A stretch of DNA of 42,486 nt from Minisyncoccota bacterium (GTDB lineage: Bacteria > Patescibacteriota > Minisyncoccia > JAHIHE01 > JAGLIN01): positions 1 to 42,486 of the forward strand of contig JAGLIM010000014.1 in NCBI GenBank assembly GCA_023142995.1, read 5' to 3'. A program made the position numbers and the translations under genes. Positions 6,654-36,653 of the stretch are shown here, piece by piece. Each line of letters opens with the position of its first letter. The stretch's first letter is position 1. Under the pieces are notes generated by a model. The model was not told where the DNA came from, did no database searches, and saw only the letters and a list, made by a program, of their open reading frames with translations.

Positions 6654-9600
6654 TTATGGACTTAACACTTTTCCTGGATAATACATTTTACTCTCTATTC
6701 CACACTCTCCGTAAATAACTTCAAAATACCCATCATCACCGAGATTAGGCCAATCTGTGCCCCAACTATTTCTAACGATCCAATAATTAGCTAGATCGTC
6801 ATATCCAACAATTACAACAGCATGATTTAAAGAAGTATCATTTAAACATCCAAGAGTACCCGCATCCCAACCGTTACTAGCAGGATCTGCATTCATAACA
6901 ACAACAATTGGACCATCATTGATAATCTTGTCTTTCATAATCTGAGGTATCATACCTATGTTAGAAGATGAACTGTCTATATTCCAAATGTTATTTTGCC
7001 AAAGAGCACATTTGCCAGAGCAAACAGCGTTGGCAGACTGATAAGGAAAACAGCTTTCCTTATTTATTCCAACAGTTTGAAGATAATACATTGCAAGGTT
7101 TGGGTCGCCTCCATTACAATCTCCCGCATAAGAGCATGAGACAAGATCTTGCTCAGATAAATTTTCATCCAAATTCAAATTGCTATTTTGAATATTATAT
7201 TTAGCCTCTACCGATCCTAAAGTTGCAAATGCCCAGCAAGAGCCACATCCCCCTTGATCTCGTATCGGAGTCATCCAATTTCCAGCATTATTTCTCCAAT
7301 CAAATACAGCAGTTGCACTAACATCAATACAAGTATTATCAATTTCTGCTGGTTTTGTCGTATCATCTCCACAAAAATTATTATCGGTGCAAACTCTTGT
7401 TCTGTTCCCTAACGCGCAAAAAGACCATTCAATACAATCCCAATCAGGAACACAAACGGTCGGAACTGGATCAATTTGAATTTGAAAAGTTTTTATTACC
7501 TCAGCAGTAAAAGGGAAATTACTATCTTTAATTTTCACTGTAATAGTATGCAAACCTTCTGTTAGATCGTTTTTTTGAAAAAATTGCGCAGAACCTATAA
7601 GACCATATACGTCTGATGTCCAACTAATGCTAGCTACTGACCATCCAATTATTTGATTAGCAAGAAATAATACTGACTGACCAACTATAAAATGATCACC
7701 ATTCTTGGGATATATATCATATATAGATGTTGCTTCAACAACATTAATTATTTTTGTATCTTGCGCTGTTGCAACACCATCTGTAACACTCAGCGTTATA
7801 GTATGAGCCCCAAGCGCCCAAGCAGGTATTGTTGAAAAATCAATTATCGGAAGTTTATCAGTTGAAAAGTTTCCTGCTAGATTTGAACTCCATTGATAAG
7901 AATAAGCTCCTGTCCCTCCAGAAGCAACAACACCAGCAATAAAATATCCAAAACTTCTATAAAATTCTGTTTGTCCTAACACCATTGTTACGCTCAAAGT
8001 TCCTGCTGGATGAACAGTTATATTCACACTATCTTGAGAAACAACAGCATTATTATCTGTAACTTTTAAAGTAATTGTATGAGTATTAGCAGATAGATCA
8101 CGAGAAGAAAAAACTCTCTCAGTTGAAAGAACAAGAGCTTCATTATCAGATGACCACTCATAAGTATAATCAGGAGTTCCTCCAAGAACAAACCCTTCAA
8201 AATCAACTAAATCACCTTCAGTATAATTAGTACCATTTAATGGACTATTAATTGAAACAACTAAACTGGGTAAAACGCATATTCCAGACACATTACAAGT
8301 AGCAGGAAAAACGCAACTTCCACAATCGGTTGGCACTCCGCAAAGATCTTGCGTTCCACATTCATATCCTTCTGAAAAACAAAAGTCAGGACATCCAAGA
8401 GGACAGCATTCAGTTGGACAATTTAAGCAATTTTCTCCCGCATCACAAATATTGTTTCCGCAAGTTCCTATAACTCCCGCGCAACTTGATGGATCATAAT
8501 TAAAACAATCCCAGCGACAACCTAAAGTTCCGCCTGTATAGCCAAAAAAATTGCATGTTTTTCCATTTAAATCCATATTAGCTATATTACCGTCAGCAAC
8601 ATCGCAAATCTCACCTGCCAGATTTTCAGTAATAGCATTATCACAACAAACACTTTTAAAAGTTAAATCACAACCAGAATCACCAAGATTAACGCATGCA
8701 CAATCAGCAGCGCAAGTTGTACATTCGCCACCTGCAATATCACAAGTTCCGTCTGGGCAGGTAACTTCAGCCACCGTCACAACATAATCTTGAGTTGAAG
8801 AATCAGCGGCTGTAACGGTATATGTAGCTGGTGCAGTAAAATCCTGAACTGCTCCAGATAGTGGAGCAACTGATGATCCATCGTGAGTGATAGTTGGAAC
8901 AAGAGCAGCAACAACGGTACCGAATGGGACAGTAAGAGCAACTGTTTTAGCTACTTCATCAACTGTTCCTATGACTGCTGGGACAAGTCCATTAAAATCA
9001 AAAACTGTGATGGCCTTTGAATCTGCAGCGGCAACTGTTACTGTCACAACATAATCTTGAGTTGAAGCATCAGCAGCGGTAACGGTATATGTAGCTGGGA
9101 CGGTAAAATCATTAGCTACTCCAGATAGTGGAGCGACTGATGATCCGTTATGTGTAATAGTTGGAGTAAGAATAGTAACATCTGTACCGAATGGAACTGT
9201 AAGAGCAACTGTTTTAGCTGCTTCATCAACTGTTCCTATGACTGCTGGAGTAAGAGCGTTGAAATTAAAAACTGTGATGGCCTTTGAATCTGCAGCGGCA
9301 ACTGTTACTGTCACAACATAATCTTGAGTTGAAGCATCAGCGGCGGTAACGGTATATGTAGCTGGGGCAGTAAAATCCTGAACTGCTCCAGATAGTGGAG
9401 CGACTGATGATCCACTGTAAAAGATAGTTGGAACAAGAATAGTAACATTCGTACCAAATGGGACGGTAAGAGCAACTGTTTTAGCTGCTTCATCAACTGT
9501 TCCTATGACTGCTGGGACAAGTCCATTAAAATCAAAAACTGTGATGGCCTTTGAATCTGTGGCTGTAGCGACAATAACATCAAAATTAGCTTGCTCAGCA

Positions 9601-10007
9601 TTAAACACATATCCAAACAAATCAGCAGTAATTATAAAAACCTTATAATTACCTATTGGAAGGGTCAACGGAATATCAAATTTATTACTAAATATTTTAT
9701 CTCCAGCGACAGTGTCAAAATTTGTACCATCATCATAAAGATTAATTGTTCCCACATCTATCCCTGCTGCATTTTTTATCAAAGCTCTTGCATAAGTGAT
9801 CCCAGAAACATCTTCAATTTTTGAATTGATCAAGATACTATTGCCTTGATTTTGAGGATCAGGAGTTACAGTTGTATTGCTTACTAAAGGCTCACTTTGA
9901 TTATCAATCTCAAAAGATGGTTTTTGAGCATAAACAATTGAAACAACTAAAATTGCAAGTGCCAAAAAAGTAAATATTGCAATTTTTTTAATATTATTTT
10001 TATTCAT
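6654..10007 (-). CDS. Giant secreted protein with C-terminal papain-like (C1A) cysteine peptidase
   Basis: An 1117-residue exported protein. The signal helix is at about 8-27. An Ig-like domain at about 50-145 contains DTVAGDKIFS. Three near-identical 89-residue repeats (about 150-417, DSKAITVFDFNG to QDYVVTV) resemble DUF5018. A Cys-rich region (420-560) carries CGNNICDAGENCLNCPTEC, and PKD/Ig-like modules follow to about 830. The final part from about 900 is a C1A peptidase with all key residues: oxyanion Gln918 in RDQGGCGSCWAF, nucleophile Cys924, His1062 (LNHAVVIVGY), Asn1080 (RNSWG). No clear inhibitory propeptide precedes it, although the long N-terminal part could serve that role. It is likely a surface or released protease with adhesive stalk domains. 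It follows two T4SS-pilin-like genes on the same strand, which suggests a shared envelope or secretion role (inferred). Confidence 0.93.
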   Translation of the reverse strand: MNKNNIKKIAIFTFLALAILVVSIVYAQKPSFEIDNQSEPLVSNTTVTPDPQNQGNSILINSKIEDVSGITYARALIKNAAGIDVGTINLYDDGTNFDTVAGDKIFSNKFDIPLTLPIGNYKVFIITADLFGYVFNAEQANFDVIVATATDSKAITVFDFNGLVPAVIGTVDEAAKTVALTVPFGTNVTILVPTIFYSGSSVAPLSGAVQDFTAPATYTVTAADASTQDYVVTVTVAAADSKAITVFNFNALTPAVIGTVDEAAKTVALTVPFGTDVTILTPTITHNGSSVAPLSGVANDFTVPATYTVTAADASTQDYVVTVTVAAADSKAITVFDFNGLVPAVIGTVDEVAKTVALTVPFGTVVAALVPTITHDGSSVAPLSGAVQDFTAPATYTVTAADSSTQDYVVTVAEVTCPDGTCDIAGGECTTCAADCACVNLGDSGCDLTFKSVCCDNAITENLAGEICDVADGNIANMDLNGKTCNFFGYTGGTLGCRWDCFNYDPSSCAGVIGTCGNNICDAGENCLNCPTECCPLGCPDFCFSEGYECGTQDLCGVPTDCGSCVFPATCNVSGICVLPSLVVSINSPLNGTNYTEGDLVDFEGFVLGGTPDYTYEWSSDNEALVLSTERVFSSRDLSANTHTITLKVTDNNAVVSQDSVNITVHPAGTLSVTMVLGQTEFYRSFGYFIAGVVASGGTGAYSYQWSSNLAGNFSTDKLPIIDFSTIPAWALGAHTITLSVTDGVATAQDTKIINVVEATSIYDIYPKNGDHFIVGQSVLFLANQIIGWSVASISWTSDVYGLIGSAQFFQKNDLTEGLHTITVKIKDSNFPFTAEVIKTFQIQIDPVPTVCVPDWDCIEWSFCALGNRTRVCTDNNFCGDDTTKPAEIDNTCIDVSATAVFDWRNNAGNWMTPIRDQGGCGSCWAFATLGSVEAKYNIQNSNLNLDENLSEQDLVSCSYAGDCNGGDPNLAMYYLQTVGINKESCFPYQSANAVCSGKCALWQNNIWNIDSSSSNIGMIPQIMKDKIINDGPIVVVMNADPASNGWDAGTLGCLNDTSLNHAVVIVGYDDLANYWIVRNSWGTDWPNLGDDGYFEVIYGECGIESKMYYPGKVLSP
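8759..9559 (-). repeat. Three 267-bp in-frame tandem repeats
   Basis: Units start at 9559, 9292 and 9025 (each marked by the complement of CCTTTGAATCTG). They encode three 89-residue copies that are almost identical at the DNA level, with exactly constant spacing. This implies recent duplication or gene conversion and possible copy-number variation between strains. Confidence 0.92.
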
Positions 10008-15434: not shown

Positions 15435-15447
15435 TATGTCTAATCTT

Positions 15448-15551
15448 GACTCCTCACGAAAGTGAGGGTGAAGTATCGTAGGACTGATGAAATTCAAAAG
15501 ACTTACGAAATTTCTCCCTTGCTCTCGCAAGGACTCCAGTGAAATTGAAAC
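15448..15551. repeat. Structured dispersed repeat R2
   Basis: Second copy of the element at 1066: hairpin CCTCAC-GAAA-GTGAGG, the conserved GTGAAGTATCGTAGGACTGA, then hairpin CCTTGC-TCTC-GCAAGG and GACTCC. It lies just upstream of the rnpB promoter. Confidence 0.85.
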
Positions 15552-15568
15552 AAGTTTACTATAGATCC

Positions 15569-15635
15569 GGATTCCTCACGAAAGTGAGGGTGAAGTATCG
15601 TAGGACTGATGAAATTCAAAAGACTTATGATATTT
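15569..15635. repeat. Structured dispersed repeat R3 (first half only)
   Basis: It has the same CCTCAC-GAAA-GTGAGG hairpin and identical following core as R2, about 121 bases further on. The second hairpin is absent and the sequence diverges after about 15630. Positions 15636-15729 show no gene. Confidence 0.8.
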
Positions 15636-18653: not shown

Positions 18654-18682
18654 ATTATACTATAGATAAATTTACTTGTCAA
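18654..18682 (-). promoter_or_regulatory. Consensus promoter of the HTH-PRTase gene (leaderless start)
   Basis: On the minus strand TTGACA (18682-18677), 17-bp spacer, TATAAT (18659-18654), then seven bases to ATG. The spacer contains ATCTATAGTA, one arm of the palindromes at 18712 and 18783, so a bound regulator would sit on the promoter. Confidence 0.85.
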
Positions 18683-18711
18683 TACTAGTTTATTAGCTTA
18701 AATAAAGTAAA

Positions 18712-18738
18712 ATCTATAGTACGTATTGTACTATAGAT
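18712..18738. promoter_or_regulatory. Palindromic operator candidate 1
   Basis: ATCTATAGTAC and its exact inverse GTACTATAGAT flank a 5-bp spacer GTATT. It is about 30 bp upstream of the -35 box of the HTH-PRTase gene. Confidence 0.75.
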
Positions 18739-18782
18739 ATAAAACACACAAAACACTGCTTTGTCGGCTTAAATAAGCTAAA

Positions 18783-18808
18783 ATCTATAGTACACATTGT
18801 ACTATAGA
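18783..18808. promoter_or_regulatory. Palindromic operator candidate 2
   Basis: ATCTATAGTAC, spacer ACATT, GTACTATAGA. It lies exactly 71 bp from candidate 1 within a duplicated segment (CTTAAATAA...AAAATCTATAGTAC at 18698 and 18769), and 34 bp after the Nudix stop codon. Confidence 0.75.
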
Positions 18809-19351: not shown

Positions 19352-19450
19352 GCGGGAACTGGTTTAAAACCAATTCCTAATGTTTCCCATACAGGTAAGA
19401 TAAGATGAAACTTAAAAACATAGGAAACGGGTTTTAAACCCGTTCCCGCA
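19352..19450 (-). repeat. REP/BIME element A
   Basis: Minus-oriented copy of the two-hairpin element: HP2 (GCGGGAACTGGTTT...) then linker then HP1 (ACGGGTTTTAAACCCGTTCC). It begins 22 bases after the stop of the gene at 19472. Confidence 0.9.
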
Positions 19451-21348: not shown

Positions 21349-21400
21349 ATTTTTTTAGTTAAACAAATTAATTAAATTAAATACTCTGTATATTTTCCTT

Positions 21401-21497
21401 CGCGGGAGCGGGTTTGCAACCCGTTCCTTTTGTTTTTAAGTTTCATCTTATTTTACCTGTATAAAAAACATTGGAAACGGCTAAACCAATTCCTGCG
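21401..21497 (+). repeat. REP/BIME element B
   Basis: Plus-oriented copy. HP1 is intact (GAGCGGGTTTGCAACCCGTT); HP2 is eroded (GGAAACGG-CTAAACCAATTCC). Between this copy and 21660 I see only AT-rich sequence. Confidence 0.85.
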
Positions 21498-25059: not shown

Positions 25060-25158
25060 GCGGGAACGGGTTTGTAACCCGTTTCCTTTGTTTTGAAGTT
25101 TCATCTTGTTTCACCTATATGATAAACATTAGAAACTGGTTTCAAACCAGTTCCCACG
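25060..25158 (+). repeat. REP/BIME element C
   Basis: Complete plus copy: HP1 GAACGGGTTTGTAACCCGTT, linker with GTTTCATCTTGTTTCACC, HP2 GAAACTGGTTTCAAACCAGT. It forms a tandem pair with D (period 133 bp, with the preceding CGCGGAAATAGACTTCTTTG also duplicated). Confidence 0.95.
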
Positions 25159-25192: not shown

Positions 25193-25289
25193 GCGGGAAC
25201 GGGTTTGTAACCCGTTTCTTTTATTTTTAAGTTTCATCTCATTTTGCCTGTATGGGAAACATTGGAAACTGGTTACAAACCAGTTTCTG
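25193..25289 (+). repeat. REP/BIME element D
   Basis: Complete plus copy, tandem with C. It ends 11 bases after (minus-strand sense) the stop of the gene at 25300. Confidence 0.95.
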
Positions 25290-25299
25290 TAAAAACAAT

Positions 25300-25998: not shown

Positions 25999-26126
25999 TT
26001 TTCAATTAAGTTTAAATAATTAGGATTTTCTCCCATCGCTGGCTCAGGTCTCCTGACCTGAATCATATATTTCTTACAATTACACTATAACCAACTATCA
26101 ATCTAAAGCTCGCAATTCTTACTTTC

Positions 26127-26224
26127 GCGGGAACGGGTTTGTAACCCGTTCCTTTTGTTTTTAAGTTTCATCTTATTTTGCCTGTATGGGAAACATTGGA
26201 AACTGGTTACAAACCAGTTCCCGC
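26127..26224 (+). repeat. REP/BIME element E
   Basis: Complete plus copy with the best-preserved hairpins (GGAACGGGTT-TGT-AACCCGTTCC). It ends 12 bases beyond the stop of the gene at 26236. Just before it, 26040-26065 holds a separate small hairpin CAGGT-CTCCTG-ACCTG. Confidence 0.95.
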
Positions 26225-26235
26225 AATAAAGGATT

Positions 26236-27270
26236 TCAGGCAACAGAGTCCCCGTGTAAATCTATTCCCCATATCTCATTTAGTTGCTTCTCGGAAGGAT
26301 TTGAAATACACTGTTTATAAATTTTATTTAATTCCTCTTGTGTCTTTTTTATAATTTTTTTATAAACCTGCTGATTCCTTGCCCCGATTGATAATTCTAT
26401 ACAGAAGTTTTTTGTAAAGGGTGGTAATAATTCTAAGTTTATAACCATTATTTGCGACCTTTGTTCATATCCTAGTCGAAAACCTTGTTTAGAAATAAAA
26501 CTAAATTCAACTCCGTATGCATTTTGATAATTATAATTTTCTATATCACTAAATTGAATATTATTTTGACAATTATCTCCCGATGAAAACGTCCTAATAA
26601 ATCCATAGATATCTTCAGCGATACCGAGTCCTCCGTTTACCGCCATTAAACCAACATTCCACTTTACTGCCTTGTTCTCTGTAATTTTTGGAATACCCAT
26701 ATTGCCCAGATTAAACATCCAAAAAACATCAGATTGTGGCGAACGCCCAAACATTCCCTGTAATACTCCATGTGGAACGGGCATAAACGAATCTCCAGCA
26801 CGCATATAATATTTATAGTCACTGATGTTTTGATATGGTCGGTCGCTCCCCTTTGGAATAACAGTGACTATTAATCCTTCATTCGCACTGTTTGACTTTT
26901 TTACGATAAAATTTTCAACAGTTTTATGAACTGGTAATGTTAGAAGCGATATAAACGACTCAAGGAGAGATTTGAAATTTTCTACACTCTTAATTGGCTT
27001 TATCGCTTTTGCGAAATCATCATAACTACCCGATGCCTCTATTCCCCAAATTATAATACCGCCTTCAGAATTTCCAAAACCAGATAGAGCTTTTGCGAAA
27101 TTCTTTTTGTCTGAATCAAACAAAGTTTTCTGTCCACTATAATCATCTTTTTGTGTTAACTTAAAATCAACAAAAAAACTTTCTGATTCTTTTCTAGCTA
27201 AAATATCTTCAAAAGCCTTGAAACCTTGTTTTTTTATATCATCAATAATTGGAGTTACATTATCCTTCAT
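26236..27270 (-). CDS. AlbA_2 (Schlafen-type) domain protein
   Basis: A 344-residue protein. Residues about 28-165 match the AlbA_2/Schlafen-type domain: ESFFVDFKLTQ, then KNFAKALSGFGNSEGGIIIW and GIE, then LIVTVIPKGSDRPYQN, then YYMRAGDSFMPVP. The ExxxxDFK and NFAKALSGFGNSEGG segments are the conserved core. The C-terminal half (about 180-330) is unrelated to the usual ATPase or HTH partners and ends in a Lys-rich helix. AlbA_2 proteins are often transcription regulators or defence effectors binding nucleic acid. The gene is bracketed by REP copies F (upstream) and E (downstream). Confidence 0.85.
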   Translation of the reverse strand: MKDNVTPIIDDIKKQGFKAFEDILARKESESFFVDFKLTQKDDYSGQKTLFDSDKKNFAKALSGFGNSEGGIIIWGIEASGSYDDFAKAIKPIKSVENFKSLLESFISLLTLPVHKTVENFIVKKSNSANEGLIVTVIPKGSDRPYQNISDYKYYMRAGDSFMPVPHGVLQGMFGRSPQSDVFWMFNLGNMGIPKITENKAVKWNVGLMAVNGGLGIAEDIYGFIRTFSSGDNCQNNIQFSDIENYNYQNAYGVEFSFISKQGFRLGYEQRSQIMVINLELLPPFTKNFCIELSIGARNQQVYKKIIKKTQEELNKIYKQCISNPSEKQLNEIWGIDLHGDSVA

Positions 27271-27295: not shown

Positions 27296-27393
27296 GCGGG
27301 AGCGGGTTTGTAACCCATTTCTTTTGTTTTGAAATTTCATTTTGTTTTGCCCATATGGGAAACATTAGAAACTGGTTGCAAACCAGTTCCCGT
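27296..27393 (+). repeat. REP/BIME element F
   Basis: Complete plus copy, slightly eroded HP1 (AGCGGGTTTGTAACCCATTT). It lies between the AlbA_2 start and the RAYT gene. Confidence 0.92.
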
Positions 27394-27410: not shown

Positions 27411-28011
27411 CGGGTAGAAACTCGTTCGCAACCCGATCATATTACTTCTAAGCATCAACAGCCTCCGTTCTTATTATACTCTGTGGATTGGCGGAAGACC
27501 AATGCCAATGTGCTGGATCTGTCACATATTGTTTTCTAACTGGATTTTCTTGAATGTAATTTACTTTTTGTAGAAAATATTTTTCTGATTCAATTTGTTT
27601 GGGCATATTCGTTTTTTGCCAGAACTCATATTTATTTTCACCGATTTGAAATAATTTTAAAATACTTGGTTCAGTGGCAATGATATTTTTCAAGATTTCC
27701 TTGGAAGTAAATTTTTTGAAATCTCTGACAAAAGCAATCATATCCGAAGAAGAAGCAATTAAGTGAATATGATTCAACATAAAAACATAAGCATATAATT
27801 TTAAATCTTTATTTTTTTGACAATACTGGATTGAATCACTTAGAATTTGAAATCTATTGTGTCGGTCAAAAATGTAATACCAGTTTTTTATGGTAAATGT
27901 GAGAAAATATATTCCTGAATTTAATTCTTTTGAAATTTTGATAGATGGCATATAAAAATTTGTTTTATTTGCTTGGGAAACATTAGAAACTGGTTACAAA
28001 CCAGTTCCCGC
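27411..28011. mobile_element. RAYT unit: degenerate HP1 - transposase - HP2
   Basis: The transposase gene (27448-27951) is preceded on its left by a degraded HP1-like hairpin (CGGG ... CGCAACCCGATCA, 27411-27440). On its right lies the linker end plus intact HP2 (TTGGGAAACATTAGAAACTG ... CCAGTTCCCGC, about 27971-28011). The order HP1-gene-HP2 matches a full element whose internal deletion would give the short REP copies. Confidence 0.7.
27448..27951 (-). CDS. REP-associated tyrosine transposase (RAYT, Y1/HUH)
   Basis: A 167-residue single-strand transposase of the Y1_Tnp/IS200-like fold. Strand ISKELNSGIYFLTFTIK begins it; the HUH motif is H61-I-H63 in VFMLNHIHLIA. The nucleophile is expected at Tyr132 in VNYIQENPVRKQYV, the family's Y-x-x-x-NPVR signature, and HWHWSSA follows. 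RAYTs bind and cut hairpins of REP elements and are domesticated IS200/IS605 relatives. Length (usually 150-230) and both catalytic motifs are intact, so it may be active. It sits among nearly identical REP elements, and it lies between HP1-like and HP2 sequences. Confidence 0.94.
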   Translation of the reverse strand: MPSIKISKELNSGIYFLTFTIKNWYYIFDRHNRFQILSDSIQYCQKNKDLKLYAYVFMLNHIHLIASSSDMIAFVRDFKKFTSKEILKNIIATEPSILKLFQIGENKYEFWQKTNMPKQIESEKYFLQKVNYIQENPVRKQYVTDPAHWHWSSANPQSIIRTEAVDA

Positions 28012-28026
28012 GAAAGTGACTTCTTT

Positions 28027-28124
28027 ACGGGAGCGGGTTTGTAACCCGTTTCCTTTGTTTTAAAGTTTCATCTTGTTTTGTCTGTATGGGAAACATTGGA
28101 AACTGGTTTCAAACCAGTTCCCGC
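28027..28124 (+). repeat. REP/BIME element G
   Basis: Complete plus copy (GAGCGGGTTTGTAACCCGTT; GAAACTGGTTTCAAACCAGT), then a short echo GAGCTCCCGCAGAAG. It ends 27 bases from the Fic stop. Confidence 0.95.
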
Positions 28125-28150: not shown

Positions 28151-29212
28151 TTATAATTTTCTGTAAACAGTGCCACGTCCTTGTCCAATCCGCTCTATTT
28201 TTTTAAGTCGCATTAATTTATCAAGTGCTTGTCTAACAGTGCCATAAGCCACTTTTGTCTTTTTAGCAATTTCAAGAGGGGTAGATTCATCTACTTTATC
28301 AAGATACTCCCAGACAGCAAGCTGTTTATTTGTTAATAATTTTTCTATTTTTTCTTCTGATAATAGCTCCATTGCCATTTGAGATTGCTTGATCAGAATA
28401 GTAAAAAAGAACTCTATCCACGGCACGACATTTTCTTTTTTAGAACCCATTGTTTTTTGACTTTTACGCAAAGCAATATAATATTCTGGTTTATTGTCCT
28501 CAATTAATTTTTCATGGGAAACATAAGGCATATATTCATAACCTGCTTTCAAAAGCAACAAGTTTGTCAAAACACGAGAAAGCCGTCCATTACCGTCCTG
28601 AAACGGATGAATTTTCAAAAATTCCACAAGAAAATTAGCAATAACAAGAAGGGGATGATATTTTTTATCAGTCAACGATTTATCTGTCCATTCAATCAAT
28701 TCCTGCATTTCCTTAGGTGTGAGATAGGCAAGAGTGGTATCAAAAAGAATTCCAATAGATTCACCAGCTTCATTTATCATATGAACTTTGTTCTCCTGCT
28801 TCTTGTAATCACCTCTGTGTCTTATGTCTTTATCAACATATTTAAGCAATTCATTATGAAAATGCTTGATTGAACTTTCATTAAAACGAAGTGTTTTCCA
28901 TGAATTAAAAACATTCTCAAGTAACTCATAATATCCCTGAACCTCCTGTTTATCACGACTGGCAAATTTCTGAACAGAAATTCCTTTCATCATTTTTTCA
29001 ATATCCCGATCTGAAAGTTTCGCACCCTCAATGCGAGTAGAAGCACCAGTAGAAGTAATCAAAACAGATCGTTTGAGACGACCTAAAATTTGCGGACTGA
29101 GTATTGCTCCCGTAATCCATTTTCCTTTTAGCTCATCAATCTGTGTTATTTTAAACCAAACACTATCAGATATGTTTTGGATTCTTAGATTGAATTTATT
29201 ATTTTTTATCAT
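28151..29212 (-). CDS. Fic family protein 1 with winged-helix C-terminus
   Basis: A 353-residue protein. The inhibitory alpha-helix motif S58-T-R-I-E62-G63 is near the N-terminus, so this is a self-inhibited class II Fic protein. The catalytic loop is H202-PFQDGNGR210-LSR, complete. The C-terminal 65 residues form a winged helix (PLEIAKKTKVAYGTVRQALD, then LKKIERIGQGRG). Fic proteins usually transfer AMP from ATP to a target hydroxyl. The wHTH and the palindrome at its own promoter suggest autoregulation. It is paralogous to the protein at 34446, sharing layout and motif spacing. Targets unknown. Confidence 0.95.
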   Translation of the reverse strand: MIKNNKFNLRIQNISDSVWFKITQIDELKGKWITGAILSPQILGRLKRSVLITSTGASTRIEGAKLSDRDIEKMMKGISVQKFASRDKQEVQGYYELLENVFNSWKTLRFNESSIKHFHNELLKYVDKDIRHRGDYKKQENKVHMINEAGESIGILFDTTLAYLTPKEMQELIEWTDKSLTDKKYHPLLVIANFLVEFLKIHPFQDGNGRLSRVLTNLLLLKAGYEYMPYVSHEKLIEDNKPEYYIALRKSQKTMGSKKENVVPWIEFFFTILIKQSQMAMELLSEEKIEKLLTNKQLAVWEYLDKVDESTPLEIAKKTKVAYGTVRQALDKLMRLKKIERIGQGRGTVYRKL

Positions 29213-29271: not shown

Positions 29272-29354
29272 AATTGTTTTAGTGTTTATAGAAACAATAC
29301 GACATACTGCAGTTGGTTCAATATCTCTGACCTGAACCAATTATTCCTTCTTTG

Positions 29355-29451
29355 CGGGATTGGGCTTAAAACCCGTTTTTTTTGTTTTTATATTGCATTT
29401 CGTTTTATTTGTATGGGAAACATTAGAAACTGGTTTCAAACCAGTTCCCGC
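29355..29451 (+). repeat. REP/BIME element H
   Basis: Plus copy; HP1 is diverged (GGATTGGGCTTAAAACCCGT), HP2 intact. A further hairpin TTGGTTCA ... TGAACCAA lies just before it (29311-29341). Confidence 0.92.
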
Positions 29452-31893: not shown

Positions 31894-32745
31894 TTAACCA
31901 ATTTTCTTCACCAGATTATCATAAATTTCCAAATAATTATTACTTAGCTGTTTTATTCCTTCTGGTGATTCTATTAAATTTTTCATATCCTCATAAATTC
32001 CTTTTGTGTTAATATTTTCTGTTCTCTCGCGAATTAATTTCCAGATATCATCATAACTTTTTACTGTCTTATTTTGTTCTGCTTTTATAATTTGTTGAAC
32101 TCTTTTTAAATTTGGCTTAATTCCATTTTCTAAAAACCAAATTAAATCATAAAAATCCCGCCCCTTAAAATCAAATTTATCCTGAAATACTTTATCTTTT
32201 CTGCCCAATATTGCACCTATTTTATTAGCAAATAAAGTTTCTAAATCATAGTTTCTAATAATAAAAAATAAGTTGTCTCTGGCTATAGGCGTTGCTTTTA
32301 TATCATAGACAGAATATTTATTTTTTTCTATTTCTATTTTCAAATATAATAGATCACTTTCAGATCTTATATTTTCTATAATGCCTAATTTTTTTAGAAC
32401 TGGGAATTTCAAAATAATGAGTTTGCCATTTTGTTTAGAAGCGTAACCGAGATCGTCAAATCCTAATTGCTTAAAATATTTTATTAAATCTGTCAAAAAT
32501 CTATCAGAATCAAAGTTTTCCTCAAGATAATCCATATCCAAATCTTCAGACAAGCGCGCAGTCTTTCCAATTATTTTCAAAGCCGTTCCACCGCCAAAAA
32601 TTAGCTTATTCCACTTTGGTGAATTATAGATAAAATCAAGAGCATAATAAATTAACGCTTCTTTTAACTCTATCTTTATATATTCTTGGGATATGTTTCT
32701 ATCTCTACCTAACTGAACTATTCTTTCTAAATTATTTATCAACAT
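31894..32745 (-). CDS. abiEii: AbiEii/AbiGii-type nucleotidyltransferase toxin
   Basis: A 283-residue protein with the AbiEii signature: LIFGGGTALKII (nucleotidyltransferase GG-T loop at 51-54), then S66-E-D68-L-D70 (metal-binding D-x-D), and the later NYDLETLFANKIGAILGR and KFDFKGRDFYDLIWFLENG. AbiEii proteins use GTP or CTP/tRNA-type substrates to block growth and are neutralised by a partner AbiEi. The start overlaps the upstream antitoxin gene by 14 bases, the classic arrangement. All motifs appear intact. It probably acts as the toxin of a phage-defence or maintenance pair. Confidence 0.93.
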   Translation of the reverse strand: MLINNLERIVQLGRDRNISQEYIKIELKEALIYYALDFIYNSPKWNKLIFGGGTALKIIGKTARLSEDLDMDYLEENFDSDRFLTDLIKYFKQLGFDDLGYASKQNGKLIILKFPVLKKLGIIENIRSESDLLYLKIEIEKNKYSVYDIKATPIARDNLFFIIRNYDLETLFANKIGAILGRKDKVFQDKFDFKGRDFYDLIWFLENGIKPNLKRVQQIIKAEQNKTVKSYDDIWKLIRERTENINTKGIYEDMKNLIESPEGIKQLSNNYLEIYDNLVKKIG

Positions 32746-34445: not shown

Positions 34446-35504
34446 TTATTTTCCTATCTTCCCATACCTCGTCGCTGAACCTTGTCCGATTTTTTCAAGC
34501 AGTTTATATTCTGTTAATCTAGATACGGATTGTTTTACTGTTGATAGAGGGATGTTTGTTTTCTTTTGAATTTCAGAAACCTTTAGTTCAATGCTGTTAG
34601 TAAACAAATCGTAAATTTTTTCTTGTGCTCTGGAAAGTAACTTTCTGTTCTCCTTGCCTTCTAATAAGCTCAATGCTTTTTTATTTTGTGTTAAAACAGC
34701 GTCAAGGAAAAAACTTAACCAAGACGTAATATCTTCATTTTTAGTTTTATGGTCTTTTTGTGTTTTCCTTAATGCCAAGTAATATTCTGATTGTTTTTCT
34801 TCAATAATTTCTTCTAAAGAAACATAGGGAACAAAACTGTAATTATTTTGGAGCATCATCAAATTGATCAAAACTCGTGAAAGCCGTCCATTGCCATCAA
34901 TAAAAGGATGAATAGCTAAAAATTCAAAAATAAAATTCGCGATTATCACTAGTGGATGCAAATCTTTTTTCTCTTGTCTTTCTTTGTACCATTCAAAAAG
35001 ATCATCCATTTCTTTTTTTACAAGCCATGGTGCAGTTGGTTGAAAAAGAATTTTTTTAATTTTTCCTTTTTCAACAATAGCCACGGTGTTATCTTTGGTT
35101 TTATATCTCCCGCAATGTTCTTTGTCTTTTTTGGAAAATGCTAACATTATTTTATGCAATTCCAAAATTCTGCTTTCGCTAATTTTCAAACTTTTGTAAT
35201 TATCAAAAACCCTTCTTAATAGATCAGCATATCCAGCCACTTCTTCCTCATCCCTATTTTTTGGAGTTTTTTGTTTAATTCCATGCAAAAAATGTTCCAC
35301 TTCCTTGTCAGTCATTTTTGCTCCTTCAATACGAGTAGACGAAGCTGAACTGGTAATCACTACTGATCTTTTCAATTGATGCAAGATTTTTGGATTCAAA
35401 AAAAGCGAACCGCTCCAGCGTCCTTTCAATTCATCAATTTGAGCAATTTTTAAAATTATCTCATTTGAAAGTTTTATTCTTTTGTTTAATCTATCTTTAA
35501 TCAT
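34446..35504 (-). CDS. Fic family protein 2 with winged-helix C-terminus
   Basis: A 352-residue paralogue of the protein at 28151 with the same layout. Inhibitory motif S56-T-R-I-E60-G61, Fic loop H199-PFIDGNGR-LSR, and a C-terminal wHTH (LKVSEIQKKTNIPLSTVKQS, then EYKLLEKIGQGSAT). Shared sequence blocks include IDELKGRW, LKRSV, STRIEGAK and HPLVIIANF. All catalytic residues are present, so AMP transfer is expected. The two differ enough in sequence to be old duplicates rather than a recent copy. A promoter with a direct repeat in its spacer and a small palindrome lies upstream. Confidence 0.95.
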   Translation of the reverse strand: MIKDRLNKRIKLSNEIILKIAQIDELKGRWSGSLFLNPKILHQLKRSVVITSSASSTRIEGAKMTDKEVEHFLHGIKQKTPKNRDEEEVAGYADLLRRVFDNYKSLKISESRILELHKIMLAFSKKDKEHCGRYKTKDNTVAIVEKGKIKKILFQPTAPWLVKKEMDDLFEWYKERQEKKDLHPLVIIANFIFEFLAIHPFIDGNGRLSRVLINLMMLQNNYSFVPYVSLEEIIEEKQSEYYLALRKTQKDHKTKNEDITSWLSFFLDAVLTQNKKALSLLEGKENRKLLSRAQEKIYDLFTNSIELKVSEIQKKTNIPLSTVKQSVSRLTEYKLLEKIGQGSATRYGKIGK

Positions 35505-36301: not shown

Positions 36302-36653
36302 CTACTGTCCGAAACCTTGATATAGTCGATTGTCCTAAAGTAAATTTAAAGTCTTAATAACTTTAAATTACACAGTTCCGTAGAAATGTCATCCTGAATT
36401 TAGTTCAGGATCTTCAAGTTGCTACTTCTATTCTATATTCAATTCAATAAACCTGCTCTTTCGTTTTAGCTTAATTTAAAGGTTTATAGATTTATAGGTT
36501 GATTTATCCGTAAGAGATGAAAGATTCTGAAATAAATTCAGAAAGACAACACGCAAGCGTGTAATTTCTAAATTGGCAAATTTGATGTCATTATCAGTGG
36601 TAAAAACCTTTTGTTTCAAAGTTCATTACAAGGTTTCGGACAGCTGTGATTAT
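36302..36653. mobile_element. 352-bp inverted-repeat insertion inside a REP element
   Basis: A 15-bp perfect inverted repeat CTGTCCGAAACCTTG (36305-36319) / CAAGGTTTCGGACAG (36629-36643) bounds non-coding DNA. AAACCA flanks both sides (36296-36301 and 36654-36659); removing the insert with one AAACCA restores the canonical REP sequence exactly, so this is a 6-bp target duplication. Inside are two opposed copies of repeat family 2 (36379-36420 and 36515-36556). A MITE-type element; no transposase. Confidence 0.8.

Follow-up and report, generated by a model that had tools for sequence, protein, structure and literature searches.

Does the transposase gene of this locus lie between two copies of its own REP hairpin, and are the short repeats around it the same element without its coding sequence? 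The initial annotation had proposed both, with the gene nested between two hairpins, HP1 and HP2. We examined the proposal in the window (the whole stretch of DNA that was analysed, 42,486 nt, from a Patescibacterium) and across related loci in other genomes.

By family model, conserved residues and fold, the open reading frame at 27448-27951 on the minus strand is a REP-associated tyrosine transposase (RAYT). It scored 89 bits against NF047646 (REP_Tyr_transpos; cut-off, 80) and carries an HUH motif (N60-H61-x-H63) and a single catalytic tyrosine (Y132); H61, H63 and Y132 were invariant across 26 RAYT relatives, while the C-terminal tail is poorly conserved. The structure predicted with AlphaFold2 (pLDDT 91.5) had as its top PDB match 4er8_A, TnpAREP (E 1.7e-7, TM 0.68), and 4er8, the Escherichia coli TnpAREP bound to a REP hairpin, outranked ISDra2 and IS608. 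With the REPtrons and 4ER8 the protein has in common the fold and the NHxH, WQ, YIxxNP and C-terminal SS motifs, a likeness by fold and motifs. It resembles the IS200/IS605 elements (IS608, ISDra2) in its HUH/Y1 fold and its hairpin-marked ends but differs from them in scoring only 14.8 bits against NF033573, the IS200 TnpA model (cut-off, 55), and in its tyrosine motif, which is YIQENP (YIxxNP) and not YxxxQ. Orthologues were found in metagenome-assembled genomes (MAGs) named Moraniibacteriota, Paceibacterota and other Patescibacteria, and a search of IMG/VR found no relative. Three close relatives (L116, L119 and L125) come from MAGs labelled Deltaproteobacteria, Brocadia and Planctomycetota, labels that reflect either horizontal transfer or binning error.

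The gene and the sequences that bound it are as follows.

27448..27951, minus strand: RAYT gene (TnpAREP-type HUH/Y1 transposase), 167 aa, assigned by family model, conserved residues and fold
27952..27985, minus strand: 5' subterminal sequence, TAATGTTTCCCAAGCAAATAAAACAAATTTTTAT, common to the left half of the REPIN spacers
27986..28011, minus strand: intact 5' REP of the RAYT element, GCGGGAACTGGTTTGTAACCAGTTTC, identified by its sequence, its fold (z -2.87) and the same position in the related loci L113 and L114
27411..27437, minus strand: decayed inverted 3' REP, identified by alignment to the 3' REP of L113; weak fold

The gene does lie between two inverted REPs, an intact one upstream and a decayed one downstream. 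The intact REP and the subterminal sequence common to all REPINs together span 27952-28011 and correspond to the intact linker end and HP2 that had been placed to the right of the gene; the degraded HP1 that had been placed to the left is the decayed REP, left being the 3' side of this minus-strand gene. HP1 and HP2 had been taken for two distinct hairpins, but each is the reverse complement of the other, a single REP, GCGGGARCNGGTTTGNAACCNGTTTC, in two orientations, and each repeat copy is a REPIN. The decayed REP reads ATCGGGTTGCGAAC...CCCGA on the window minus strand (27437-27411) and lines up in register with its intact counterpart in L113, the comparison orthologue, whose RAYT is 91-92% identical to that of the window (alignment score, 22; p ~0.0005 with dinucleotide shuffles as the control and 0.0002 with random pieces of the window). 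Failure of the flanking hairpins to align with HP1 and HP2 better than random had been named in advance as grounds for abandoning the nesting, and they aligned far better than chance. The expected fold of the 3' hairpin held up less well: the alignment to L113 speaks for it, but folding is weak, at -4.8 kcal/mol and z -1.65, against z -2.87 for the intact 5' REP. Because its 3' REP has decayed, the window RAYT gene probably no longer moves itself; it may, we infer, still serve REPINs in trans. The foot of the REP is GCGG here and GYNG across relatives (GCGG, GTTG, GCTG and GCAG). The REP does not start with GT[AG]G, as those of typical subclasses do, a start that is not required for subclass 2.6; the published REPtron/TnpAREP subclasses include 2.6, with atypical REPs that lack GTRG (PMC6006769).

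The same REP is abundant elsewhere in the genome, with 24 sites of the strict pattern and none for the reversed control. The strict pattern was present in 9 of 14 genomes of the same family and in 0 of 18 outside it. Ten of the 24 REPs lie on the RAYT contig, which makes up 2.9% of the 1.48-Mb draft genome; the p value for this clustering is optimistic, as some REPIN copies are in tandem and not independent. Two REPs in inverted orientation around a conserved spacer make up a REPIN; there are 27 distinct copies, with a modal length of 98 nt (97-99 nt in 14 of the 27). Those in the window are the following.

27296..27393, minus strand: 98-nt REPIN immediately beyond the RAYT element on its 3' side
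28027..28124, minus strand: 98-nt REPIN immediately beyond the RAYT element on its 5' side
26127..26224, minus strand: 98-nt REPIN
25060..25157, minus strand: REPIN, one of a tandem pair
25193..25290, minus strand: REPIN, the other member of that pair, with a decayed outer foot
29354..29451, minus strand: 98-nt REPIN
19352..19449, no strand assigned: 98-nt REPIN farther from the RAYT gene, both ends scoring as left-type
21375..21494, minus strand: degraded REPIN, 68% to the reference copy

REPIN orientation relative to the coding strand was weakly biased overall (19 of 26); outside the window the count was 13 of 19, a weak and non-significant form of the bias that lagging-strand transposition would produce. 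Across the 27 copies, the flanking sequence resembles TTNTY before GCGGG and is A-rich and C-poor after CCCGC, a composition that possibly reflects a target preference.

What ties the REPINs to the gene is their spacer, which equals the 5' flank of the RAYT gene joined to its 3' flank, stop-codon sequence included. Left spacer halves matched the 5' flank in nine of nine REPINs, with only 0-1 of 500 shuffles as good, and right halves matched the 3' flank in five of nine (0-2 of 500 shuffles) and more weakly in the other four. Among ~30 RAYT loci, the best left match was always one of the three GCGGGAAC elements, and the best right match was L113 or L114. One REPIN, L014, retains GTTGAGtCTTAA, comparable to the GTTGAGACTTAA of the RAYT tail, the sequence of the last codons. 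An element reduced to upstream flank, stop codon and downstream flank would measure 96-98 nt, and the modal REPIN measures 98. In clade II, REPINs were extracted and their spacers compared with the gene flanks by eye. The REPINs are MITE-like in that their ends are homologous to those of a gene-bearing element whose interior they lack, probably through deletion.

In L140, a locus of a Candidatus Kuenenbacteria MAG, a REP leads into 68 RAYT codons that abut the opposite REP, the whole spanning 296 nt; the missing part of the gene was looked for in the L140 locus and was not found. As read from its sequence, L140 shows that internal deletion happens in this family, but it is no proof that deletion, and not gene capture, gave rise to the 98-nt REPINs. 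L148, considered as a second internal deletion, is not counted, having no evident 3' REP.

The arrangement recurs among relatives, as had been predicted: inverted hairpins stand at both ends of the gene in nearly all of the 25 with complete loci, and in L113, L114 and L115 the REPs lie at -59 to -71 before the ATG and at about +34/35 after the stop codon. Hairpin stems vary between clades and agree within a locus. Over the 25 loci, an upstream hairpin scored 44.8 against the downstream hairpin of its own locus and 17.4 against those of other loci; the partner from its own locus came top in 19 of the 25, and none of 10,000 permutations paired the hairpins as well. REP type also follows the RAYT tree, with the GCGGG, GCAGGTTC and GGCTCC types in separate clades; the REP of the other clade reads GTTGGCTCC.... 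In genome G369 there are three RAYTs, and their REP stems and types differ from one to the next. Checked for several copies of one RAYT, that genome gives no sign of recent duplication, the three being only 68-69% alike in DNA and having distinct REP types.

The borders of homology between loci suggest that REP, gene and REP behave as a unit. The RAYTs L113 and L114 come from separate genomes and have 91 and 86% protein identity, respectively, to that of the window. Their DNA homology covers 597-1195 in one and 839-1439 in the other, starting and ending no more than 1 nt from the REP feet (598/1194 and 840/1438), and the neighbouring genes of the two loci bear no relation to each other. Because homology starts and stops at the REP feet between unrelated flanks, these borders fit movement as a unit. 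More broadly, 16 of 18 locus pairs with at least 75% DNA identity had no flank homology outside the REP-bounded region, a count that sets aside other REP copies or nearby short matches in the flanks; the two remaining pairs, L121/L122 and L128/L131, are syntenic. In clade II pairs the borders are fuzzy. Homologous recombination among dispersed REPINs could also have carried the gene between loci, and we regard this as a somewhat unlikely route. It would place borders at REPs too, given that REPs are repeated and REPINs lie on both sides of the window locus, but the homology common to each REPIN end is just ~50 nt, and L113 has the same borders with no second REPIN directly beside its RAYT. The question concerns only the mode of unit movement and is otherwise compatible with the explanation that follows.

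We consider it probable that the locus is a REP-rayt-REP element and that the REPINs around it and through the genome are the same element minus the coding sequence. A gene for an HUH/Y1 single-strand transposase would have its own recognition hairpin at both ends, in inverted orientation, and a REPIN would run from REP through the 5' subterminal sequence and the 3' subterminal sequence, with its stop-codon region, to the inverted REP. The enzyme would probably act on single-stranded DNA, where it would recognise the REP hairpin together with its 5' foot, presumably cut near the REP feet, and probably move the whole element, or gene-less REPINs in trans, into T-rich sites. Enzyme family and fold, flanking REPs, spacer-flank homology and homology that ends at the REP feet are what the sequences themselves show; catalysis, mobilisation in trans and deletion, as opposed to gene capture, we infer. 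The proposal that the repeats are internally deleted forms of an autonomous element stands as to spacers, lengths and L140, and its direction remains the conditional part. Deletion is supported because the spacers equal the joined flanks, the lengths agree and an internally deleted RAYT element exists. Against the explanation as a whole, the longer REPIN spacers yielded nothing of the RAYT coding sequence apart from the last codons, in six genomes of the same family type I REPs were present and no type I RAYT was detected, and the orientation bias is weak.

The reverse course, in which a pre-existing REPIN captured a RAYT gene and donated both of its flanks and perhaps its stop codon, is unlikely in our judgement. 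Spacer-flank homology is symmetric in time, the C-terminal tail of the protein is poorly conserved, and long spacers (128-148 nt), searched on both strands, held no internal RAYT coding remnant above shuffles, all of which suit capture. Capture would, however, have had to recur in each clade, as RAYTs with their own, different REPs occur across distant clades, and internally deleted elements such as L140 do exist. It seems less likely still that the ends are alike only from the need of the transposase for subterminal sequences, as binding sites in common with no descent by deletion: one enzyme must recognise both REPIN and RAYT element, which would account for the hairpins, but in-register homology runs past them through the spacer on both sides, stop-codon bases included, and total lengths agree within 1-2 nt. 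That the gene merely sits by chance amid neighbouring REPINs of an array, one of them partly decayed, is scarcely credible; the window does carry such an array, but almost every relative has inverted REPs on both sides of the gene, at distances that hardly vary, and the matching of stems within each locus in effect refutes it.

The layout and the hypothesis of origin are already published, so their novelty had been overstated; new here are the host lineage and how direct the evidence is. Nunvar et al. 2010 (PMC2817692) had reported RAYT genes with an inverted REP on either side, RAYT-REP coevolution and REPs clustered close to the gene, and found no homologues outside the gammaproteobacteria; REPINs were proposed as derivatives of an IS200-like element by Bertels and Rainey 2011 (PMC3116915). 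As in the gammaproteobacterial REP-rayt-REP loci (PMC2817692), two inverted REPs bound the RAYT gene, REPs are abundant in the genome, RAYT and REP coevolve, and REPs lie near the gene in some hosts; unlike there, the host is a Patescibacterium and the foot is GYNG, not GT[AG]G. The count of 24 REPs is modest against the hundreds in some Stenotrophomonas. Like published REPINs (PMC3116915), those described here consist of two inverted REPs and a spacer, but unlike them they have a spacer that can be matched base by base to extant RAYT 5' and 3' flanks. In the open-access literature searched, whose coverage was incomplete, we found no earlier report of REP/RAYT elements in Patescibacteria; the present loci extend such systems to this small-genome group. 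The origin of REPINs had been a proposal without a sequence-level link, and a spacer readable as joined flanks, with a deleted intermediate in a relative, makes it directly testable. REPtrons are said not to move as a unit (PMC6006769). We offer as a tentative idea that the RAYT elements of Patescibacteria still move as complete REP-rayt-REP units and repeatedly shed gene-less REPINs by internal deletion; if so, they would represent a surviving stage between IS200-like insertion sequences and the RAYTs known from Proteobacteria, immobile and single-copy.

The neighbourhood holds traces of other elements. One adjoins a REPIN of the first type.

26038..26118, minus strand: 3'-terminal remnant of another, different RAYT element, comprising last codons, stop codon and its own REP (GATTCAGGTCAGGAGACCTGAGCCAGC); matched by eye

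It is closest to the RAYT L126/L042 of genome G011 (contig C26), a gene broken by the insertion of a short repeat of another type; part of the insertion resembles window repeats at 36511 and 39488 (GAAATAAATTCAG). A gene beside the G011 RAYT matches the candidate defence family PDC-S49, and in the window, defence-like genes (26236-27270, 28151-29212, 31894-32745 and 34446-35504) surround the RAYT: a Schlafen AlbA_2 gene, two for SoFic-type Fic proteins, and AbiEii. The window also carries a further repeat family, CTCACGAWAGTGAGGGTGAAGTATCGTAGGACT (1061-1131, 15443-15513 and 15565-15635), a 253-nt unit present three times in tandem (8773-9559) inside the minus-strand open reading frame 6654-10007, and a 57-nt repeat present twice (18681-18808) that ends in the palindrome-like TCTATAGTAC...GTACTATAGA.
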